From contig CAJXYU010000003.1 of NCBI GenBank assembly GCA_913063155.1, forward strand, positions 310,001 to 374,000: DNA of 64,000 bases, read 5' to 3'. This document shows positions 19,702 to 30,139 of the stretch, in pieces (positions within the stretch are counted from its first letter, which is position 1; each line of letters begins with the position of its first letter). Made by a program: the position numbers and the translations under genes. The DNA comes from an uncultured Desulfovibrio sp. GTDB lineage: Bacteria > Desulfobacterota > Desulfovibrionia > Desulfovibrionales > Desulfovibrionaceae. The notes below the pieces were generated by a model. The model searched no databases. It worked only from the letters and a program-made list of their open reading frames with translations, and had not been told where the DNA came from.

Positions 19702-19924
19702 ACAACCCCCGATTGTTTTTGCCGCCATCCCTCAATGGGGCAAGACTCACCGCACGTCTGCGATGAAAATACACATAAGGTTTAATTCCTATATATATTA
19801 TACGAAAAGGTCAACAACAGTAGATTTTCCAACATGTTCCGAGAGCACTTTCTCCCAGGTGCTCCGAAAACGCCGCTTCTTCAGGTGCTCGTGAAAAATT
19901 TACACATAAAATATAATTTAGCCC

Positions 19925-19952
19925 TTGACATTGATTGATCGATCAATATATT
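19925..19952 (+). promoter_or_regulatory. Consensus sigma-70 promoter with operator in the spacer (tetR)
   Basis: TTGACA (19925-19930), a 16-base spacer and TATATT (19947-19952). The spacer holds TTGATTGATCGATCAA, including a perfect 12-bp palindrome TTGATCGATCAA, so a bound repressor would block RNA polymerase. Confidence 0.7.
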
Positions 19953-19963
19953 CATTTTTCAGA

Positions 19964-19983
19964 GATTGATTGACGAATCAATC
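19964..19983. promoter_or_regulatory. Second palindromic operator upstream of tetR
   Basis: GATTGATT-GACG-AATCAATC, perfect 8-bp arms, just downstream of the -10 box. It shares GATTGAT with the spacer palindrome, consistent with two sites for the TetR protein itself. The longer ORF start at 19966 would lie inside it, which favours ATG 20017. Confidence 0.65.
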
Positions 19984-20016
19984 GTCTCAGTCCGCTATAA
20001 AGGAAACGGCACGAAG

Positions 20017-20601
20017 ATGACGAAGAAAGACGCAATACTAGTGGCAGCGCAAGAGGCATTTGGTGAGCTTGGTTATTCAGGCACCACCATGAAAGACGTC
20101 TCCATGCGGGCCAATGTGTCTTTCGGTCTGGTCTCCCACTATTTTGGCAATAAACATGATTTGTTCCTTGCCGCTGGATTCGACGTGGTAGACCGCCTCA
20201 TCACAATCCTGAGACAAGCGACAGCGAGTGGAGCCAGCGGACTGGATGCGATCGAAAAATACATGATCGCGTATTTCGACTTCACCATCGAGCACCGGAC
20301 GACATTCCCGGTACTCCTGCGTTGCTCACCGTTCAGCCACATTGAGCCGGGTGTGGATGCGAGCAAGGTTGCAGTCAAGTTTCAGGACATGATCGATGCC
20401 TTGCGCGAGGCCGTTGCCCGAGGCATCGAAGATGGAACCATCAGGGAGGTCGCCATGGAGGAAACAGCCCTGATTATTTACGGCAATATCATCGGCGCCG
20501 TGAGAACCAAGCTCCTCACCCCTTACGACACCGACGAGATATATGCCGAAACCCTCAGGCACATTTTGCGCAGTCTCCGATGCAGCTCCTCGGCATCATA
20601 G
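20017..20601 (+). CDS. TetR/AcrR-family transcriptional repressor
   Basis: 194 residues from ATG 20017; the ORF track's earlier start at 19966 falls within an operator palindrome. The N-terminal helix-turn-helix reads DAILVAAQEAFGELGYSGTT and MKDVSMRANVSFGLVSHYFGNKHDLFLAA, typical of TetR. The C-terminal ligand domain is variable and predicts no ligand. Two palindromic operators overlap its promoter, so autorepression is likely. The only divergent neighbour is the tetraheme cytochrome/heme-MCP operon, whose upstream region shares this 315-base gap and could be a second target. Confidence 0.88.
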   Translation: MTKKDAILVAAQEAFGELGYSGTTMKDVSMRANVSFGLVSHYFGNKHDLFLAAGFDVVDRLITILRQATASGASGLDAIEKYMIAYFDFTIEHRTTFPVLLRCSPFSHIEPGVDASKVAVKFQDMIDALREAVARGIEDGTIREVAMEETALIIYGNIIGAVRTKLLTPYDTDEIYAETLRHILRSLRCSSSAS

Positions 20602-20644: not shown

Positions 20645-20860
20645 CTTGGTTGCGGAAAACAAAGAGTTTTCCGGAGCCGTCTGAGGAAGATCGACACTCC
20701 TCCTCAGAATTGAACCGGGTCGGACACCACCTCCGACGGGATGCAGGATTGGACCGCAAACTGAACCTGCCCCAGACGTCCGCCCGAACGAGCCCGGAAG
20801 GTTCGCCCATCGACCGGGTATGCAGCAAGGGGGCCGCGAAAGCGGCCCCCTTGGCCTGTT
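20645..20860 (+). ncRNA. Candidate structured RNA: four hairpins plus intrinsic terminator
   Basis: No plausible ORF, but a run of perfect stems: GGAAAAC/GTTTTCC (20654-20672), CTGAGGA/TCCTCAG (20681-20707), GTCGGA/TCCGAC (20719-20737), CCCGG/CCGGG (20793-20818), then AGGGGGCCGC-GAAA-GCGGCCCCCT with a following CTGTTTTC (20826-20860). Only the plus strand has a T-run after the last stem, so the RNA should be plus-strand, either its own transcript or a 3' tail of tetR. It precedes the operator array and sigma-54 promoter. Not matched to a known RNA by eye. Confidence 0.5.
20826..20853 (+). terminator. GC-rich terminator stem
   Basis: CAAGGGGGCCGC paired with GCGGCCCCCTTG, GAAA loop, followed by GCCTGTTTTC. 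It ends the RNA candidate and any tetR read-through before the operator array. Confidence 0.75.
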
Positions 20861-20980
20861 TTCTGGGGCCTCGCCTCTTCCCCACCAGCCGATCTAAAGC
20901 GTTCATGCAACACATCCTCCAAAAACTATCTCTTTAAATTCAATGCATTAACAACAATCTTAACACTTTATTTATATTCG

Positions 20981-21047
20981 TGCGACACAGTGTCGCATGC
21001 GACACATTTACAGCAGCATGTCGCATTATAACGACACAATGCGACAC
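20981..21047. promoter_or_regulatory. TGCGACA/TGTCGCA operator array (probable activator sites)
   Basis: TGCGACAC-A-GTGTCGCA (20981-20997) is a perfect dyad. It is followed by TGCGACAC (20998-21005) facing TGTCGCA (21019-21025), and by ACGACAC (21031-21037) with TGCGACAC (21040-21047). The half-site occurs five times in 67 bases, plus one degenerate copy. The array sits about 90-155 bases before a sigma-54 promoter, the place where enhancer-binding activators bind. Confidence 0.65.
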
Positions 21048-21136
21048 TTTTCAAAATTGCATATACCATTGGGTGTCTCCATACAATGGCCTGGAATAAC
21101 GAGACTAAAAACTCCACACATCTTGTTTCCGATCTC

Positions 21137-21152
21137 TGGCACAGCCCTTGCT
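21137..21152 (+). promoter_or_regulatory. Sigma-54 (RpoN) promoter of the CII-like gene
   Basis: TGGCACAGCCCTTGCT matches the TGGCAC-N5-TTGC[A/T] consensus exactly, with the GG and GC dinucleotides 10 bases apart. The predicted start is about 21163, 58 bases before ATG 21221. Such promoters need an ATP-dependent activator bound upstream, which fits the TGCGACA array. Confidence 0.8.
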
Positions 21153-21220
21153 ATTTCCTGCTCCGTGAAGGGTGGTTAATGCATCGTGAAATGCCGATAC
21201 CAAAGAGCGGAGGGTGAGAC

Positions 21221-21529
21221 ATGTTTGGAAAAAGCGTTACCAAGGTTGTGCAGGACTGCATTCTCGACAGCGGCATCCAGGCCAAAGTCGTGGCCGAAAT
21301 GATCGGCAAGCCGTATTCCACGCTCATGCGTGAAATCAACCCTTTCGATTCCAGCGCCAAGCTCGGTGCGGAAACCCTGCTGGACATCATGAAAGTCACC
21401 AAGGACACCCGACCCTTGAAATTCATGGCCGCTGAAATGGGGTACTCTCTCGAGACCCTGAAAGCCGACAAGTCCGGTGAATACCGCATGAATTATTCGG
21501 AACAGTACGACTCTGCGGAAGCAGGCTAG
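21221..21529 (+). CDS. CII-like (CP76 family) small regulator, copy 1
   Basis: 102 residues. The core IGKPYSTLMREINPFDSSAK with LGAETLLDIMKVT matches the phage CII/CP76 (PF06892-like) helix-turn-helix family, in which many delta-proteobacterial chromosomal members have no prophage nearby. GGAGGG precedes ATG 21221. It lies directly behind a sigma-54 promoter and in front of the Cache lipoprotein and phosphorelay genes. A close paralog lies at 29825. The DNA target is unknown; its C-terminal 20 residues are polar and non-conserved between the copies. Confidence 0.75.
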   Translation: MFGKSVTKVVQDCILDSGIQAKVVAEMIGKPYSTLMREINPFDSSAKLGAETLLDIMKVTKDTRPLKFMAAEMGYSLETLKADKSGEYRMNYSEQYDSAEAG

Positions 21530-21582: not shown

Positions 21583-22587
21583 ATGAGCAGGATTGCGGTT
21601 CTACTCATTCTCATCCTATGCGCGCTCTTCCCGGCCTGCTCCGGCGGTCCGACGAAGGACAGGATCGAACACGCCCGGGTCACCGCTTCCCGTCTGGCGG
21701 ACAACATCAACAACGACTTCTCTCCCATCCGCCGCAAAGTGGCGGAACAGGCCCAGGCCATACGGGACGTATACCTGAGCAGGCATACCATCCTGCCCAC
21801 GGTGGATGCCTCGAAATATCGCATTGCGGACAACGGAGTCATGTACAAGGCCGTATCGGACGGACGAGCCGCCCTGTTCGTTTCGGGGCACTCCCCCATT
21901 ACCCGGGAAGTCATGCAGGAGGCCTATTTCACCGAGGCCGTCGATGAAGCCCTGGAACGAATCTGCCGCGAACTTCCTGCCGTGGCCCAGGCATACTACA
22001 ACAGCGAAAACAACCTGAACCGCATTTACCCGCCGTTCGATGTGCTGGCCCAGTACGAGCCGCGCGTCAATTTCCGCGGCTTCAACTTCTATTACCTGGC
22101 AGACGAACGGCACAACCCCCGAAAAGGGCCGGTATGGGTGGCGGAACCCTATGTGGATCCGGCCGGAAGGGGGTGGACAGTCTCGGCCATCGCCCCGGTT
22201 TACGTGGACGGCAGGCTTAAGGGAGTCACCGGCCTCGACGTGACCGTCGGCAGCATCACGGACCGCTACATCACCCCCGACGACAGGAACATTCTGCTGG
22301 TGGATGGTGAGGGAGTCGTGGTCACCGGACACGAGGACTTCATCACCCTGCTTTCCCTGCCGCCGCTCACCGCCCACAAATACCTGACCACGGTCAAGCA
22401 GGACACCTACCGCAGGGACGACTATTCCCTGCTTAAAAGTAGATCCAAAGTCGTAAGAAATCTTGGAAAAGAGCTTCTGGGACGCATGTCGGACGAGGCG
22501 AACATCAACATCCGGGGCGGAACGCACACCATACTTTCCCTTAGAATCCCGGAACTGGGCTGGACTCTTTTGTATCTCGTGGAGTAA
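21583..22587 (+). CDS. Cache-domain lipoprotein, probable periplasmic sensor
   Basis: 334 residues. A signal peptide with lipobox LFPACSGG indicates lipid anchoring. The remainder has the double-PDC Cache layout: PPFDVLAQYEPRVNFRGFNF, WVAEPYVDPAGRGWTVSAIA, PVYVDGRLKGVTGLDVTVG and DRNILLVDGEGVV, as in periplasmic ligand-binding sensor domains. There is no kinase or output domain, so it probably presents a ligand-bound state to the hybrid kinase encoded 40 bases downstream. A GGGGGC sequence precedes the ATG. Ligand unknown. Confidence 0.8.
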   Translation: MSRIAVLLILILCALFPACSGGPTKDRIEHARVTASRLADNINNDFSPIRRKVAEQAQAIRDVYLSRHTILPTVDASKYRIADNGVMYKAVSDGRAALFVSGHSPITREVMQEAYFTEAVDEALERICRELPAVAQAYYNSENNLNRIYPPFDVLAQYEPRVNFRGFNFYYLADERHNPRKGPVWVAEPYVDPAGRGWTVSAIAPVYVDGRLKGVTGLDVTVGSITDRYITPDDRNILLVDGEGVVVTGHEDFITLLSLPPLTAHKYLTTVKQDTYRRDDYSLLKSRSKVVRNLGKELLGRMSDEANINIRGGTHTILSLRIPELGWTLLYLVE

Positions 22588-22626
22588 AGGATACAATATC
22601 AGGAATTGTATCCAGGAATAGCCACG

Positions 22627-24750
22627 ATGACCGAGAAACGACGCGCCAGAAAAAACCTCACACTTCCTTTCGGCAAAACCATAGCGCTTATGATGCTTTT
22701 GCTGCTGCTCTTTCTCGGGGCCAGCGCCTGGATCGTCTCGGACATCATCGCCAACACCACCAAAATACGTGAGGAGGGACTTTTCAAACAGACCCAGCGG
22801 GCCGGCCGGAATCTGGAATACCGCTACCGCATCTTCCTGGAGGACCTGACCAGCTTCATCAACCTGAAGCTCTTCGCCGATTTTTCCGAATGGGACCGGG
22901 AGGATACCGAAACAATGCTGCGCATCAAGCGCTTCTACGCCCGGCACCAGGACACCATCCGCCGGATCACCGTGCAAAACAACGACGGCAGATGGATCAG
23001 CGTCCACAAAACCCCCGAAAACTATTACCTGGTAAACAGGAACGATGCCCCGGGGAAACTGCTTTTCGACACGGTCACTCCCATGCTCCTCCGGGACAGG
23101 ACCTTGTTCCATTATGTGGAGCCCGTTCGCGGTGCGGACGGAGAGGTAAGCATGCGGGTCATTGTCAGCACCAGCCTGGCCGACATGTTCCTCTCCGAAA
23201 CCCAGAGCTTCTTCCTGGGCCCGGAAAGCTGGATGTGGCTCATCGATGACGACGGTGAGGTGCTCGACATGGTTTCCTCAGGGGGCGCCCGGGCCTCGGA
23301 CGGATTCTTCTCCCTGGGAAAAATACAGACCATCATCCATGACATAGGCCTTGGCTATGAAGGCATGCTCAGACACCGGATCAAGGGAGACAGCCCCATA
23401 GACGTGGTTTCGACCTACTACCCGATCCGCATTTTCGACAGTATTTTCGGCGTGGTTTTCTCGGTCAGCCGTCAGTCCGTCGCATCGGGTATCGTCAATG
23501 CGGCCCTCGCCCTGGGCGCGGCTTTCGTGGCACTGCTCATTCTGCACTCCGCAGCCTTCTTCATGACCCTGCGCCAAAGGAACCTCGCGGTGAAGGCGGC
23601 CGAGTCCGCCAACGAAGCCAAGAGCCGCTTCCTGGCCAACATGAGCCACGAGATACGCACACCGTTGAATACGGTGGTGGGCATGGCCCAACTGGTGGAA
23701 AAGGCTGAAGACCTTTCCGAGGAACACCGGGAAAACATGCGGCTGATCATGACCGCATCGGAAAACCTGCTCCAGATCATCAACGACATCCTCGACGTAT
23801 CCAAGGTGGAGGCGGGACAGCTCAAGATCATCAATGAGCCCGTCAACCTGCGCGCCTTGGTGTCCGAACTGACCGATATCCACGGCGTCCAGGCCAGGGC
23901 CAAGGGCATCGAGATCAAGAACCTGTTCCTGGATGTGCCGGAGTGGGTGGAGGTCGACCCGGTGCGCTTGCGTCAGGTGCTCATCAACCTGCTGGGCAAC
24001 GCCGTCAAATTCACGATCCAGGGATCGGTGATTCTGACCGTTTCCATGGCGCCGGGAACCCCGGCCCGGAACACGGCCATCATCCGTTTCGAGGTGACTG
24101 ATACAGGCGTCGGCATTCCGCAGGAAAAGATCGAAACCGTATTCCAGGCCTTTACCCAGGCTGACGGCTCCACGGCCCGGAAATTCGGGGGGACCGGCCT
24201 CGGTCTGACCATCGCGAACGGACTCATAAAGCTCATGGGAGGCGACGGCATCAACGTATCGAGCCACCCGGATGCCGGCAGCGTGTTCAGTTTCGAACTG
24301 CCGCTGCGCATCGCGGAACCGCCCACAATACAAGCGGAGGAAAAAGTGAGCGAACAGATCAGCGGACATTACCCGGACACCAGGATTCTTGTCGCCGAAG
24401 ACACGCGCATGAACCAGATTCTGTTGGAAAAGATCTTCGACCGCATTACCTTGGGAGGAGTGGACTACGTCAACAACGGACAGATGGCCCTGGACACGCT
24501 TCTGGACACGCCGGACCGTTACAATCTGGTGCTCATGGACATCCAGATGCCGGTGCTGGACGGGCTGTCGGCAACCCGCAAAATACGAGAGGCGGGCATA
24601 AGGACCCCTGTCGTGGCTCTCACCGCCCACGCCCGGCCCGAGGATCGCAGGCAGTGCATGGAATCGGGCATGAACGGCTTCATCGCCAAGCCCTACAAAC
24701 TGGAAAAGCTGCTCCAGGTCCTGGAAAAACATGCCTCGCACCCCACATAG
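22627..24750 (+). CDS. Hybrid sensor histidine kinase (periplasmic sensor, HisKA, HATPase, REC)
   Basis: 707 residues from ATG 22627, behind AGGAA (the track's start at TTG 22606 is less likely). TM1 about 15-40, a periplasmic sensor of about 250 residues, TM2 about 297-315. The phosphoacceptor is His341 in [15 protein letters not shown], the N-box NLLGNAVKFT and the G-boxes TGVGIP and GGTGLGLTIA form the ATPase, and a C-terminal REC domain has its acceptor Asp638 in LVLMDIQMPVLDG. A phosphorelay to a separate HPt is implied by the next gene. Confidence 0.93.
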   Translation: MTEKRRARKNLTLPFGKTIALMMLLLLLFLGASAWIVSDIIANTTKIREEGLFKQTQRAGRNLEYRYRIFLEDLTSFINLKLFADFSEWDREDTETMLRIKRFYARHQDTIRRITVQNNDGRWISVHKTPENYYLVNRNDAPGKLLFDTVTPMLLRDRTLFHYVEPVRGADGEVSMRVIVSTSLADMFLSETQSFFLGPESWMWLIDDDGEVLDMVSSGGARASDGFFSLGKIQTIIHDIGLGYEGMLRHRIKGDSPIDVVSTYYPIRIFDSIFGVVFSVSRQSVASGIVNAALALGAAFVALLILHSAAFFMTLRQRNLAVKAAESANEAKSRFLANMSHEIRTPLNTVVGMAQLVEKAEDLSEEHRENMRLIMTASENLLQIINDILDVSKVEAGQLKIINEPVNLRALVSELTDIHGVQARAKGIEIKNLFLDVPEWVEVDPVRLRQVLINLLGNAVKFTIQGSVILTVSMAPGTPARNTAIIRFEVTDTGVGIPQEKIETVFQAFTQADGSTARKFGGTGLGLTIANGLIKLMGGDGINVSSHPDAGSVFSFELPLRIAEPPTIQAEEKVSEQISGHYPDTRILVAEDTRMNQILLEKIFDRITLGGVDYVNNGQMALDTLLDTPDRYNLVLMDIQMPVLDGLSATRKIREAGIRTPVVALTAHARPEDRRQCMESGMNGFIAKPYKLEKLLQVLEKHASHPT

Positions 24751-24863
24751 GAAAACGAGGAAAAATCATTCCGTTCCTTTCCTTTTCGGGTTATACGATA
24801 TCATAGGCGCGAAGCTCGCCATGCGCCACGGTAATATTATTTCAAGCAAGGCAGGTGACAGCT

Positions 24864-25169
24864 ATGCTCAGAGAAATCTCCAGGAAATACTATACCGAGG
24901 AATTCCAGCTCGCCCCCACCGATGTGGACGACCTGATCAATGAAGCATTCACAACGCTGAACCGGAGCATCAAGGAATTCGAAAAGCTCTTTGCCGACGG
25001 CGACGATATGGCCGCCATCAGGGAGGCGGCCCACGCCATGAAAGGCAACCTGCTGAACATGGGGCTGGATGACCAGGCAGACATGGCCCTCAGCATTGAG
25101 CGCTCGGACAATACCGACACGGCACAGGACCACTTCTCCAATCTCAAGAAGGAATTGGAAGCATTTTAG
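24864..25169 (+). CDS. Stand-alone HPt phosphotransfer protein
   Basis: 101 residues from ATG 24864 (AGGTGA upstream; the track's GTG 24855 is less likely). The four-helix HPt motif is REAAHAMKGNLLNMGL, whose histidine receives phosphate from a REC aspartate. It sits between a hybrid kinase and a REC-PAS-PAS protein, exactly where a relay intermediate is needed. The domain has no catalytic activity of its own. Small size and single domain fit the family. Confidence 0.85.
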   Translation: MLREISRKYYTEEFQLAPTDVDDLINEAFTTLNRSIKEFEKLFADGDDMAAIREAAHAMKGNLLNMGLDDQADMALSIERSDNTDTAQDHFSNLKKELEAF

Positions 25170-25181
25170 GCGGGGAATCCC

Positions 25182-26450
25182 ATGGAAATCACACCTGAAA
25201 TCCTCGTCGTGGACGACCAGAAGTTCACCCACGTGCTCCTGAACAAGGCTCTCAAGGAACTGGGGGTGCACGTGGTTTCCGCCTTTTCCGGCCAGGAAGC
25301 CATCGACATTCTAGACGATCACGACCTCAGCGTCGTGCTTATGGATCTGCGCATGCCCGGCATGGACGGCATAGAAACCGCCAGGCACATCCGTAACGCC
25401 AAGCGCACGGCAGACCTGCCCATCATTTTCATCACCGCCGCTCAAGGCGACGAGGAACACGCCATGCGCGCCTATGAGCTGGGAGCAGTGGACTTCCTGT
25501 ACAAACCCGTCTCCGCGCCGGTGCTCAAGTCCAAGGTAGCCGTCTTCGTGGAGCTGTTCCGCAAACGGAAGGCCCTGCAGCAGCGCAGTGAGCAATACCG
25601 CGACGTGCTGGAGGCCATTTCCGAAGGACTGGTCACCGTGGACATGGACTGGAATATCGTGGAAGCCAACGACTCGGCCTGCCTCATGTTGGGGTATGGA
25701 TACGACCAGCTCTGCTCCATGAAACTGCCCGACGTCATGTTCCTTGAGCACGGCGACCTGCTCCAGGAAATCAACGAACTCATTGAGCAGAACGTCACCT
25801 TCCGGGTGGAGGCAAAGGCAAAGCGCCGCAACGACGCCGTGATCTGGGTTGAGCTCAGGGGCAGCATTTTCATGTACGGAGGGGCGCCGCACATCCTGGC
25901 GGTGACCCAGGACATCACCTTGCGCAAGGAGAACGAACTGGAGCTGCAGCAACACCGCGACCGCCTGGACAGCTTGGTGGAACAGCGCACAGAACAACTG
26001 CGATCCGCCATCGAGCAATTGCGCCAGGAAAACGACGTACGGCAAAACGTTGAGGCAGTTCTGGAAGAGCAGCTGGATTTCAGGCAGGGACTCATGAACG
26101 CCCTGCCCGACCCCATGTATTTCAAGGACAACAAAGGATTCTACCGAGCCTGCAATGATGCCTTCGCCTCCATATTCGGGCTCAGTGCCGAGGACATCAT
26201 CGGAAAAACCGCCCAGGACATCCACCCTTCTGACGTGGCCGCCATGCTCCAGCAAAAGGACAGCGAACTGCTTCAGTCCGGGCTGGCGCAACGCTTCTGC
26301 CTGCACGTCTACACCACGGATGGAGGCCGACGCCATGTGCAGCTGCACAGAGCCCTGTTCAGGGACAAGGACGGTCTTCCCGCCGGGATCGTCTCAGTGG
26401 TGATCGATGCGGACGAGGCTCTCCAACAGCCAAAGCCGTGCGTTCGTTAG
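25182..26450 (+). CDS. Response regulator with two PAS domains and no output domain
   Basis: 422 residues starting 12 bases after the HPt gene. REC domain 1-120 with acceptor Asp55 in VVLMDLRMPGMDG and the switch lysine in FLYKPVSAP. A PAS domain (about 140-255, EAISEGLVTVDMDWNIVEAN) is followed by a coiled coil rich in Q and E (about 255-300) and a second PAS (about 305-415, NALPDPMYFKDNKGFYRACN). No kinase, GGDEF, EAL or DNA-binding domain follows, so it probably signals by protein contact with kinases. Family members with this end are often sensory relays. Confidence 0.85.
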   Translation: MEITPEILVVDDQKFTHVLLNKALKELGVHVVSAFSGQEAIDILDDHDLSVVLMDLRMPGMDGIETARHIRNAKRTADLPIIFITAAQGDEEHAMRAYELGAVDFLYKPVSAPVLKSKVAVFVELFRKRKALQQRSEQYRDVLEAISEGLVTVDMDWNIVEANDSACLMLGYGYDQLCSMKLPDVMFLEHGDLLQEINELIEQNVTFRVEAKAKRRNDAVIWVELRGSIFMYGGAPHILAVTQDITLRKENELELQQHRDRLDSLVEQRTEQLRSAIEQLRQENDVRQNVEAVLEEQLDFRQGLMNALPDPMYFKDNKGFYRACNDAFASIFGLSAEDIIGKTAQDIHPSDVAAMLQQKDSELLQSGLAQRFCLHVYTTDGGRRHVQLHRALFRDKDGLPAGIVSVVIDADEALQQPKPCVR

Positions 26451-26666: not shown

Positions 26667-28964
26667 ATGCTCCACAAGGACACAACCAGACGCACCACCG
26701 CCCCCACCTCGTTGAGCCGCAAATTCAACCTTGCCCAACTCATCATCGTTTCCATCGTGGTGGCGGTCTTCACTTCGGCCATCATCATTCTCAGCGTCAT
26801 GCGCCAGGAGGAACACCTGGACAACCGCATAGCCGAGCTTTCCAGCCTGGCGGAAAGCAACCTGGCCACGTCCATCTGGCAGATGGATCAGAAAGCGGTG
26901 GGGGATTTCGTCAACGCCCTGTTCAAAGACGACAACATCATCTTCGCCCAGGTGTTGGCAGGCAACGACACCGTGGCCATCCGAGTCCGCAGGGGACACG
27001 AAACCCATGACATGAACTATTTCCGGAGAAACCCCAACTACCGCCCCTTGAATCTCCCTCTCCACAGATACGGCGAAAACATCGGAACCTTCAACGTGGT
27101 CTTCGCCCTTTCCCCCGTTCGGAGCGAAATCCTCTTCAGCGCCGGGATATACATGGCTCTGGCCGCGTCACTCATCCTGGTCATCAGTCAGACGAGCATC
27201 ATCTTCACAAGACGCTACATCTTCGACCGCCTCAAACGACTCGAAGACTCAGCCACCGCCATGGCCGACGGAGACCTGGAGGCCGACATCGACACATCGG
27301 CCCGGGACGAAATCGGCACCCTGGCCAGATCCTTCAGCGACATGCGCAACTCCATCCGACAACTCGTTCAGGACCTGCGCAAGGCCAACCGGAAACTGGA
27401 GAACTACAGCGCGGCCCTGGAAACGAGGGTCAAGGAACGCACCGAGGAACTGGGCGCCAAGAACAGGAGCCTGAACCAAGCCCTGCACGAGGTGCGCGAC
27501 GCCAAATACCAGGCCGAAGCGGCCAACGTGGCCAAGAGCCGGTTCCTGGCCAGCATGAGCCACGAGATACGCACCCCCATGAACGCCATCCTGGGTATGG
27601 CCGACGTACTCTGGGAAACCCGGCTGGACGATTCCCAGCGCAAGTACGTAAAGGTCTTTCGCTCCGCAGGCGAAAATCTTCTGGAGATCATCAACGACAT
27701 TTTGGACCTGTCCAAAATCGAGGCGGGGCACATGCATCTGGCTGACGAAGATTTCGAATTCGCCGACCTGGTAATGAGAGCCTGTGACGTCATGCGTCCC
27801 AAGGCCGAACAAAAAGGACTGACGCTGCGTTGCTCGGTTTCCGATAAGCTCCCACCGATCATGCGCGGGGACCCCATCCGCCTGCGCCAGATCATCGTCA
27901 ACCTCCTGGCGAACGCCGTAAAATTCACCAAGGAGGGCGAAGTGTCCTTCCATGCGGAACTCATGCAGGCCCCCCAGGACGTCTCCGGGAACGGAACCGT
28001 GAACGTCCAGATAGAGGTCCGAGACACGGGCATCGGCATTTCCCCGGAAAAGCTCTCCACCATTTTCGATGCCTTCACCCAGGCCGACGCCTCCACCACA
28101 CGGGAATACGGCGGCACCGGGCTGGGGCTGGCCATCTGCCGTCAATTGACGGGCATGATGCAGGGCAGGATATGGGCCGAAAGCAGACCGGGCAAGGGCA
28201 GCACCTTTTTCGTCACCGTACGGCTGCAGCGCGGCAGGGCCACCTCGGTCCTGACGGCCGCAGCTCCCAGAAACGGGGCGCAGGACATGCCTCCACGAAA
28301 AATTCTGCTGGTGGAAGATTCCGAATACAACGCCTTTGTCATCGAAACCTACCTCAAGGACACGCCCTGCGCGCTGACCCAGGCCGTCAACGGCGAGCAG
28401 GGAGTCGCCACCTTCATGGATGAAACCTTCGATCTGGTGCTCATGGACATGCAGATGCCGGTCATGGACGGCTACGAGGCCACCCGCCAGATTCGCCGAT
28501 TCGAAAAGGACACCGGCCGTTCCGGGACGCCCATCGTGGCGCTCACCGCCTATGCCCTGGAGGGCGACGCAGACAAAAGCCTGAAGGCGGGTGCAGACCA
28601 TCACCTCCCCAAACCGGTCAAGCGGGAGGCACTGCTGGAGTCCATCAACAGATTCTGTTCCGAAGACATCCTGCCGAGTGTGGATATCGAGGTGGACCCG
28701 GCCATGAAGGAAATGGCCGAACAGTTCGTGAAGGATTGCCGCACGCGCATCCGGGACGCGGCTCAGGCCCTGACCGGCGACGACTTTGCCACAGTGAGCT
28801 CCATCGGGCACAAATTGGCCGGAGAAGGAGGCTCCTTTGATTTCGATGAAATCGGACACATCGGAGTGCTCCTGAAACAGGCCGGTGACGACAAAGCCAG
28901 AGAACGGGCGGTAGAACTCCTGGAAGAACTCAAGACGTATCTGAACCACATAGAAATAACCTGA
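26667..28964 (+). CDS. Hybrid sensor histidine kinase with HAMP, REC and HPt domains
   Basis: 765 residues from ATG 26667, preceded by GGAAGG; the track's start at 26631 has no ribosome site, so the first 12 residues are doubtful. TM1 about 15-40, a short periplasmic sensor, TM2 about 160-185, then HAMP (about 190-240) and a coiled coil. Acceptor His299 is in [15 protein letters not shown], followed by HATPase with TGIGIS and [12 protein letters not shown] Asp594 is in [13 protein letters not shown], and HPt His715 is in [14 protein letters not shown]. It holds a full four-step relay in one protein. Confidence 0.93.
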
Positions 28965-29824: not shown

Positions 29825-30139
29825 ATGTTTGAAAAGAGCCTCACGAAGAAAATGCAGGATGTTGTGTTGGAGGGCAAAATGCCCGCGAAGGAAGTTTGCT
29901 CAAAAATCAAAAAACCTTATTCGACCTTGCTCCGTGAACTGAATCCCTTCGACACCCATGCGAAGCTGGGTGCGGAAACGCTTTTCGAAATCGTCAAGGC
30001 AACTCGCAACGTTTCAGTGTTGGAATTTATGGCCGGGGAACTCGGCTATACGTTGCAACCATGCGAACGGCCCGCCCGGGCCACCCAACGGCTCATCGCC
30101 CCCAGTGAAAATCAAGAAGCCGTGCACGCTCCCCTGTAG
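29825..30139 (+). CDS. CII-like (CP76 family) small regulator, copy 2
   Basis: 104 residues from ATG 29825, with GGAGG just upstream; the track adds 24 residues of unrelated sequence. The core KKPYSTLLRELNPFDTHAK and LGAETLFEIVKAT is almost the same as in the copy at 21221 (KPYST, NPFD, AKLGAETL), while the tails differ. Same phage CII/CP76 helix-turn-helix family. It lies alone between the esterase terminator and the aldolase gene, behind a sigma-70-type promoter, so the two paralogs are under different control. Confidence 0.75.
   Translation: MFEKSLTKKMQDVVLEGKMPAKEVCSKIKKPYSTLLRELNPFDTHAKLGAETLFEIVKATRNVSVLEFMAGELGYTLQPCERPARATQRLIAPSENQEAVHAPL

Follow-up and report, generated by a model that had tools for sequence, protein, structure and literature searches.

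The CII-like regulator gene CII-A, located in the 64-kb window analysed here (the whole stretch, positions 310001-374000 of contig C3 in G000, the Pseudodesulfovibrio-like genome of a sulfate-reducing bacterium), appears with good support to be preceded by a sigma-54 promoter and by an upstream array of the kind bound by enhancer-binding proteins (EBPs). The reader of this array is most likely EBP-X, a PAS-containing EBP encoded in trans, an assignment that rests on genomic association (Table 1).

Table 1. Features of the CII-A locus and related loci (window positions unless a contig is given).
Feature	Position	Strand	Remark
TetR-family gene	20017-20601	+	conserved neighbour on the upstream side of CII-A; not the proposed activator
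Upstream array	20981-21046		five exact TGCGACA/TGTCGCA half-sites
Array boxes, in order	20981-20987, 20991-20997, 20998-21004, 21019-21025, 21040-21046	+, -, +, -, +	all exact
Palindrome TGTCGCATGCGACA	20991-21004		middle box pair of the array
Sigma-54 promoter TGGCAC-AGCCC-TTGCT (TGGCACAGCCCTTGCT)	21137-21152	+	transcript start predicted from the consensus at ~21162
CII-A	21221-21529	+	102-aa CII-like (PF06892) HTH regulator, a small chromosomal relative of phage CII
dCache lipoprotein, hybrid kinase, Hpt and RR-PAS block	21583-26450		between CII-A and the conserved hybrid kinase
CII-B	29825-30139	+	paralogue of CII-A, 46% identity
EBP-X	G000:C2:553022-555862		948-aa PAS/AAA+/Fis EBP on another contig
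CII-like loci with EBP gene upstream, other genera			L241, L254, L262 (g28); L242 (g24); L243 (g23); L244, L263 (g38)

CII-A scores 43.2 bits against Pfam PF06892, above the curated family cut-off of 26, with a match that spans profile positions 4-82 of 146 and leaves the C-terminal part of the profile unmatched. The predicted fold is a helical HTH bundle (mean pLDDT 80, residues 83-102 at low confidence), and phage 186 CII (6vli, 6vmh) was among the top matches of a fold search in which none reached E <= 0.001; a search of solved structures by sequence returned no meaningful relative. With the CP76-family CII regulators of phages (PF06892; 186 CII, PDB 6vli/6vmh) CII-A shares its above-cut-off Pfam match, but it differs from them in being chromosomal, in its TetR and histidine kinase neighbours, in its sigma-54 promoter and in matching the profile only partially. 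Of the 36 genomes that represent the genus, 35 have the gene (the lone exception, G214, is 82% complete), and as a query it matched 120 of the 199 sampled genomes of the family. A viral origin was considered for CII-A and set aside, with a single IMG/VR relative (47% identity) and a weak match to PHROG 101 (CII-like activator). The paralogue CII-B is syntenic across the genus at 3-15 kb from CII-A, and its upstream region carries a sigma-70-like TTGACG element instead of a sigma-54 promoter or boxes, neither of which was found there.

The promoter before CII-A had been proposed in a preliminary description of this DNA as a TGGCAC-N5-TTGCT match. TGGCACAGCCCTTGCT is the sole exact TGGCAC-N5-TTGCW in the window, and with up to one mismatch two sites were observed where 2.75 were expected; because in 64 kb a sigma-54 match has no significance by itself, conservation was used as the test. 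All 34 distinct orthologous CII-A promoters (34/34) have TGGCA and TGCT unchanged, and with them the GG and GC expected of a sigma-54 promoter, in the form TGGCA-N6-[TA]TGCT; the spacer is variable, and the element lies 66 to 97 bases before the ATG. On the strength of this invariance the CII-A promoter is taken as real, and the proposed match exceeds chance. The leader from the predicted start to the ATG would measure ~58 nt.

The array boxes, which lie ~92-157 bp upstream of the -24 element, are likewise borne out. The whole window contains nine boxes against 9.6 expected by chance, and five of the nine fall within 66 bp. Over the 34 distinct CII-A promoters, exact boxes at -265 to -140 total 133, compared with a mean of 2.3 and a maximum of 10 in 200 shuffles; the same promoters contain none at -140 to 0 and one at -420 to -265. 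Loss of the array or the promoter in close relatives that keep the gene, named in advance as refuting the proposal, was looked for, and both were kept in all 34 promoters. Box-to-box distances peak near 10, 20, 30, 40, 50 and 60 bp, with a period of ~10.25 bp and in all orientation combinations, so that the array has the repeated, conserved and helically phased sites, ~80-200 bp upstream of a promoter, by which an EBP upstream activating sequence is recognised. Such phasing would be the expected look of an enhancer read from one helix face, and an array of this turn-by-turn, mixed-orientation design would inform how EBPs assemble on enhancers. TGTCGCATGCGACA occurs exactly once in its own genome, as the palindrome of the CII-A array, and a search for further copies with up to two mismatches gave eight sites, one of them exact, against four for a control pattern. 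As for TGCGACA clusters before CII-like genes elsewhere, they are present in the 34 promoters of the genus; CII-like proteins of other genera with 62-68% identity have no TGTCGCA-type boxes upstream.

The activator had been said to lie outside the window, correctly, and the likely candidate is found on a different contig. EBP-X comprises a degenerate receiver-like domain, PAS repeats, a Sigma54_activat domain with GAFTGA and a Fis HTH. The genome has 39 PF00158 matches, and the box scan covered the stretches around them, ~3.5 Mb lying outside this direct-type cluster scan. One further cluster emerged, four exact TGTCGCA boxes in 38 bp, which begins 17 bp from the EBP-X stop codon. About 1e-7 clusters of this kind would be expected under uniform placement, a figure that becomes less extreme if the boxes arose by tandem duplication, as they could have. 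Boxes also stand beside EBP-X in the sister genome G148; none were found there in the remaining members of the genus, and no clear sigma-54 promoter was found adjoining the EBP-X boxes. One EBP-X ortholog per genome was present in 17 of the 17 genus genomes searched, the nif-minus G185 included, and the recognition helix GIHRATLYR is invariant among the genus orthologs. As most other EBPs may be universal in the genus too, presence alone does not single EBP-X out.

Starting from features read in the sequence (promoter, array, conservation, phasing, the EBP-X box cluster and the adjacency of EBP and CII-like genes in other genera), we infer a circuit, considered reasonably probable, in which CII-A is switched on via its sigma-54 promoter by an array-bound Fis-type EBP, most likely EBP-X. 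CII-A would be transcribed from a strict sigma-54 promoter; the EBP would bind the TGTCGCA half-sites, about one per helical turn, on a single face of the DNA, and its AAA+ domain would remodel the sigma-54 RNA polymerase at the promoter. The PAS domains of EBP-X are predicted to sense a signal that turns CII-A on, and CII-A, as a second-tier transcription factor, would in turn regulate further targets. An orphan class of chromosomal CII-like genes would thereby gain a testable upstream input, and the naming of a candidate activator and a target locus opens the circuit to direct testing.

Among 24 loci read around CII-like genes outside the genus, seven carry an EBP gene immediately before the CII-like gene and on its strand; six of these have a sigma-54-like promoter in the intervening sequence, which in L244 is degenerate. 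The sigma-54 call is weaker in g23 and g38 because the -12 element there reads TTGAT, not TTGCT. The EBPs of L241 and L254 (g28) and L242 (g24) have EBP-X as their best match in the genome of the window (52-60%, against ~40% for the next); the best-match comparison covered these three, and the EBP of L262 (g28) ends in the same type of HTH. In all three g28 intergenic regions the sigma-54 promoter is preceded by a TGTCGCTACA-type site, which shares the TGTCGC core of the array boxes. The EBPs of g23 and g38 belong to another class, whose best matches in the genome of the window are L037, L032 and L031. Since EBP genes stand beside CII-like genes in other genera, sigma-54-linked CII-like genes are a recurrent arrangement, and the genus of the window probably differs from those genera in that the EBP is detached and acts in trans. 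A tentative generalisation, possible rather than probable, is that phage CII-type HTH proteins were domesticated in Desulfovibrionaceae and serve sigma-54 circuits as second-tier regulators, with at least two EBP classes fronting CII-like genes and Pseudodesulfovibrio using a PAS-EBP in trans through an orientation-tolerant half-site array of about one site per helical turn. At L228, L230, L238 and L240, the EBP-X homologue is followed by a different palindromic array, of the TGTGGCG or the TGTGTCA type, and by a sigma-54 promoter; the gene that comes next is symporter-like or thioredoxin-like.

The array might instead serve the same sigma-54 switch while being read by an unlinked EBP other than EBP-X, which we regard as rather unlikely but the most serious of the alternatives. 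The 39 PF00158 matches, most of which lack known targets, leave room for such a protein, and EBP-X was assigned by association, from a box cluster in two genomes only; against this, no other scanned EBP neighbourhood has a box cluster, and in g28 and g24 homologues of EBP-X are linked in cis to CII-like genes. Improbable, by comparison, is the reading in which CII-A (or CII-B) itself occupies the TGTCGCA boxes to control its own promoter while some EBP acts elsewhere. Phage CII proteins bind repeated half-sites, and CII-A is an HTH protein that always co-occurs with the array; however, the boxes beside EBP-X in two genomes have no CII-like gene seen there, arrays with sigma-54 promoters after EBP-X homologues precede non-CII genes, and the 62-68% identical CII-like proteins of other genera do without such boxes. 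That the array is the operator of the upstream TetR regulator and not an enhancer is hardly credible: TetR proteins bind short palindromes and the TetR gene is a conserved neighbour of CII-A, but a different repeat, TTGATTGATCGATCAA, lies upstream of the TetR gene, and an EBP is the better fit for half-sites that recur turn by turn, in either orientation, as far upstream as an enhancer.

NifA was followed as activator from a palindrome shared with nifH, which would make CII-A part of the nitrogen-fixation response. In g38 genomes TGTCGCATGCGACA precedes the sigma-54 promoter of nifH, the genome of the window carries TGTCGGAAACGACA at -184 of its own nifH, and out of its 14 TGTCGN4CGACA sites only those of CII-A and nifH are at enhancer distance from a TGGCAC-type promoter. 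Yet G185, G203, G204, G207 and G217, which have neither nifH nor a NifA ortholog, keep the promoter and the boxes, and most nifH promoters of the genus have no such palindrome. The CII-A array therefore does not co-occur with NifA as a site of the NifA regulon would; NifA is not needed, and the candidate, now very improbable, was rejected. The array resembles the NifA upstream sites at nifH in the same bacterial family, where TGTCG-N4-CGACA stands ~115-125 bp upstream of a sigma-54 promoter in some genomes, but it consists of several phased half-sites and persists without NifA. NifA sites elsewhere read TGT-N10-ACA. In three g38 loci (L051, L053, L054) the exact TGTCGCATGCGACA comes 114 bp before the sigma-54 promoter of nifH and is probably a NifA site of the TGTCG-N4-CGACA type, not of the TGT-N10-ACA type.

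EBP-X remains the preferred reader, and comparable circuits are known from the same family. In D. vulgaris Hildenborough, EBPs use upstream sites to act on sigma-54 promoters, whether of regulators or of small transcripts lying downstream, with DVU0744 acting on DVU0682 and DVU0653 on an unannotated downstream target (PMC4641369, PMC3333781). The EBP-type upstream sites at sigma-54 promoters are shared with these regulons, while the CII-A case differs in its CII-like target, its array of up to seven half-sites and its unlinked candidate EBP. CII is not named in the text of PMC4641369 or PMC3333781, and the unannotated target downstream of DVU0653 may be a related CII case (PMC3333781, PMC4641369). 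The preliminary description had held the arrangement to be undescribed, and no description of sigma-54 control of CII-like genes was found in the open-licence literature; it is not unique, as at least four other genera have sigma-54-linked CII-like genes immediately after an EBP gene.

The placement of CII-A beside a phosphorelay, also remarked on earlier, is half right: the phosphorelay is real, but the dCache to RR-PAS block of 21583-26450 was seen beside CII-A in L004 and partly in L005, and in none of the other loci checked. Most of the genus has CII-A followed by a hybrid kinase homologous to that at 26676-28961. On the other side, the TetR gene lies ~1.1 to 1.6 kb upstream of CII-A in L004-L012, and the TTGATTGATCGATCAA-type repeats at 19900-20000 of the window, upstream of that gene, are likely its own operator. 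A conserved ~40-aa ORF (MFTNLT...QDW...NS), not seen in the window, occurs ~0.4-0.5 kb upstream of CII-A in L008, L011 and L012, between the TetR gene and an RNA-like element. This element, at 20711-20862 between the TetR gene and the array, lies in an intergenic region where an Rfam search gave nothing over the gathering score; it is conserved in 32 of the ~34 upstream regions checked, with the motifs CACCTCC and GGACCGCAA, a stem that covaries and a hairpin resembling a terminator.
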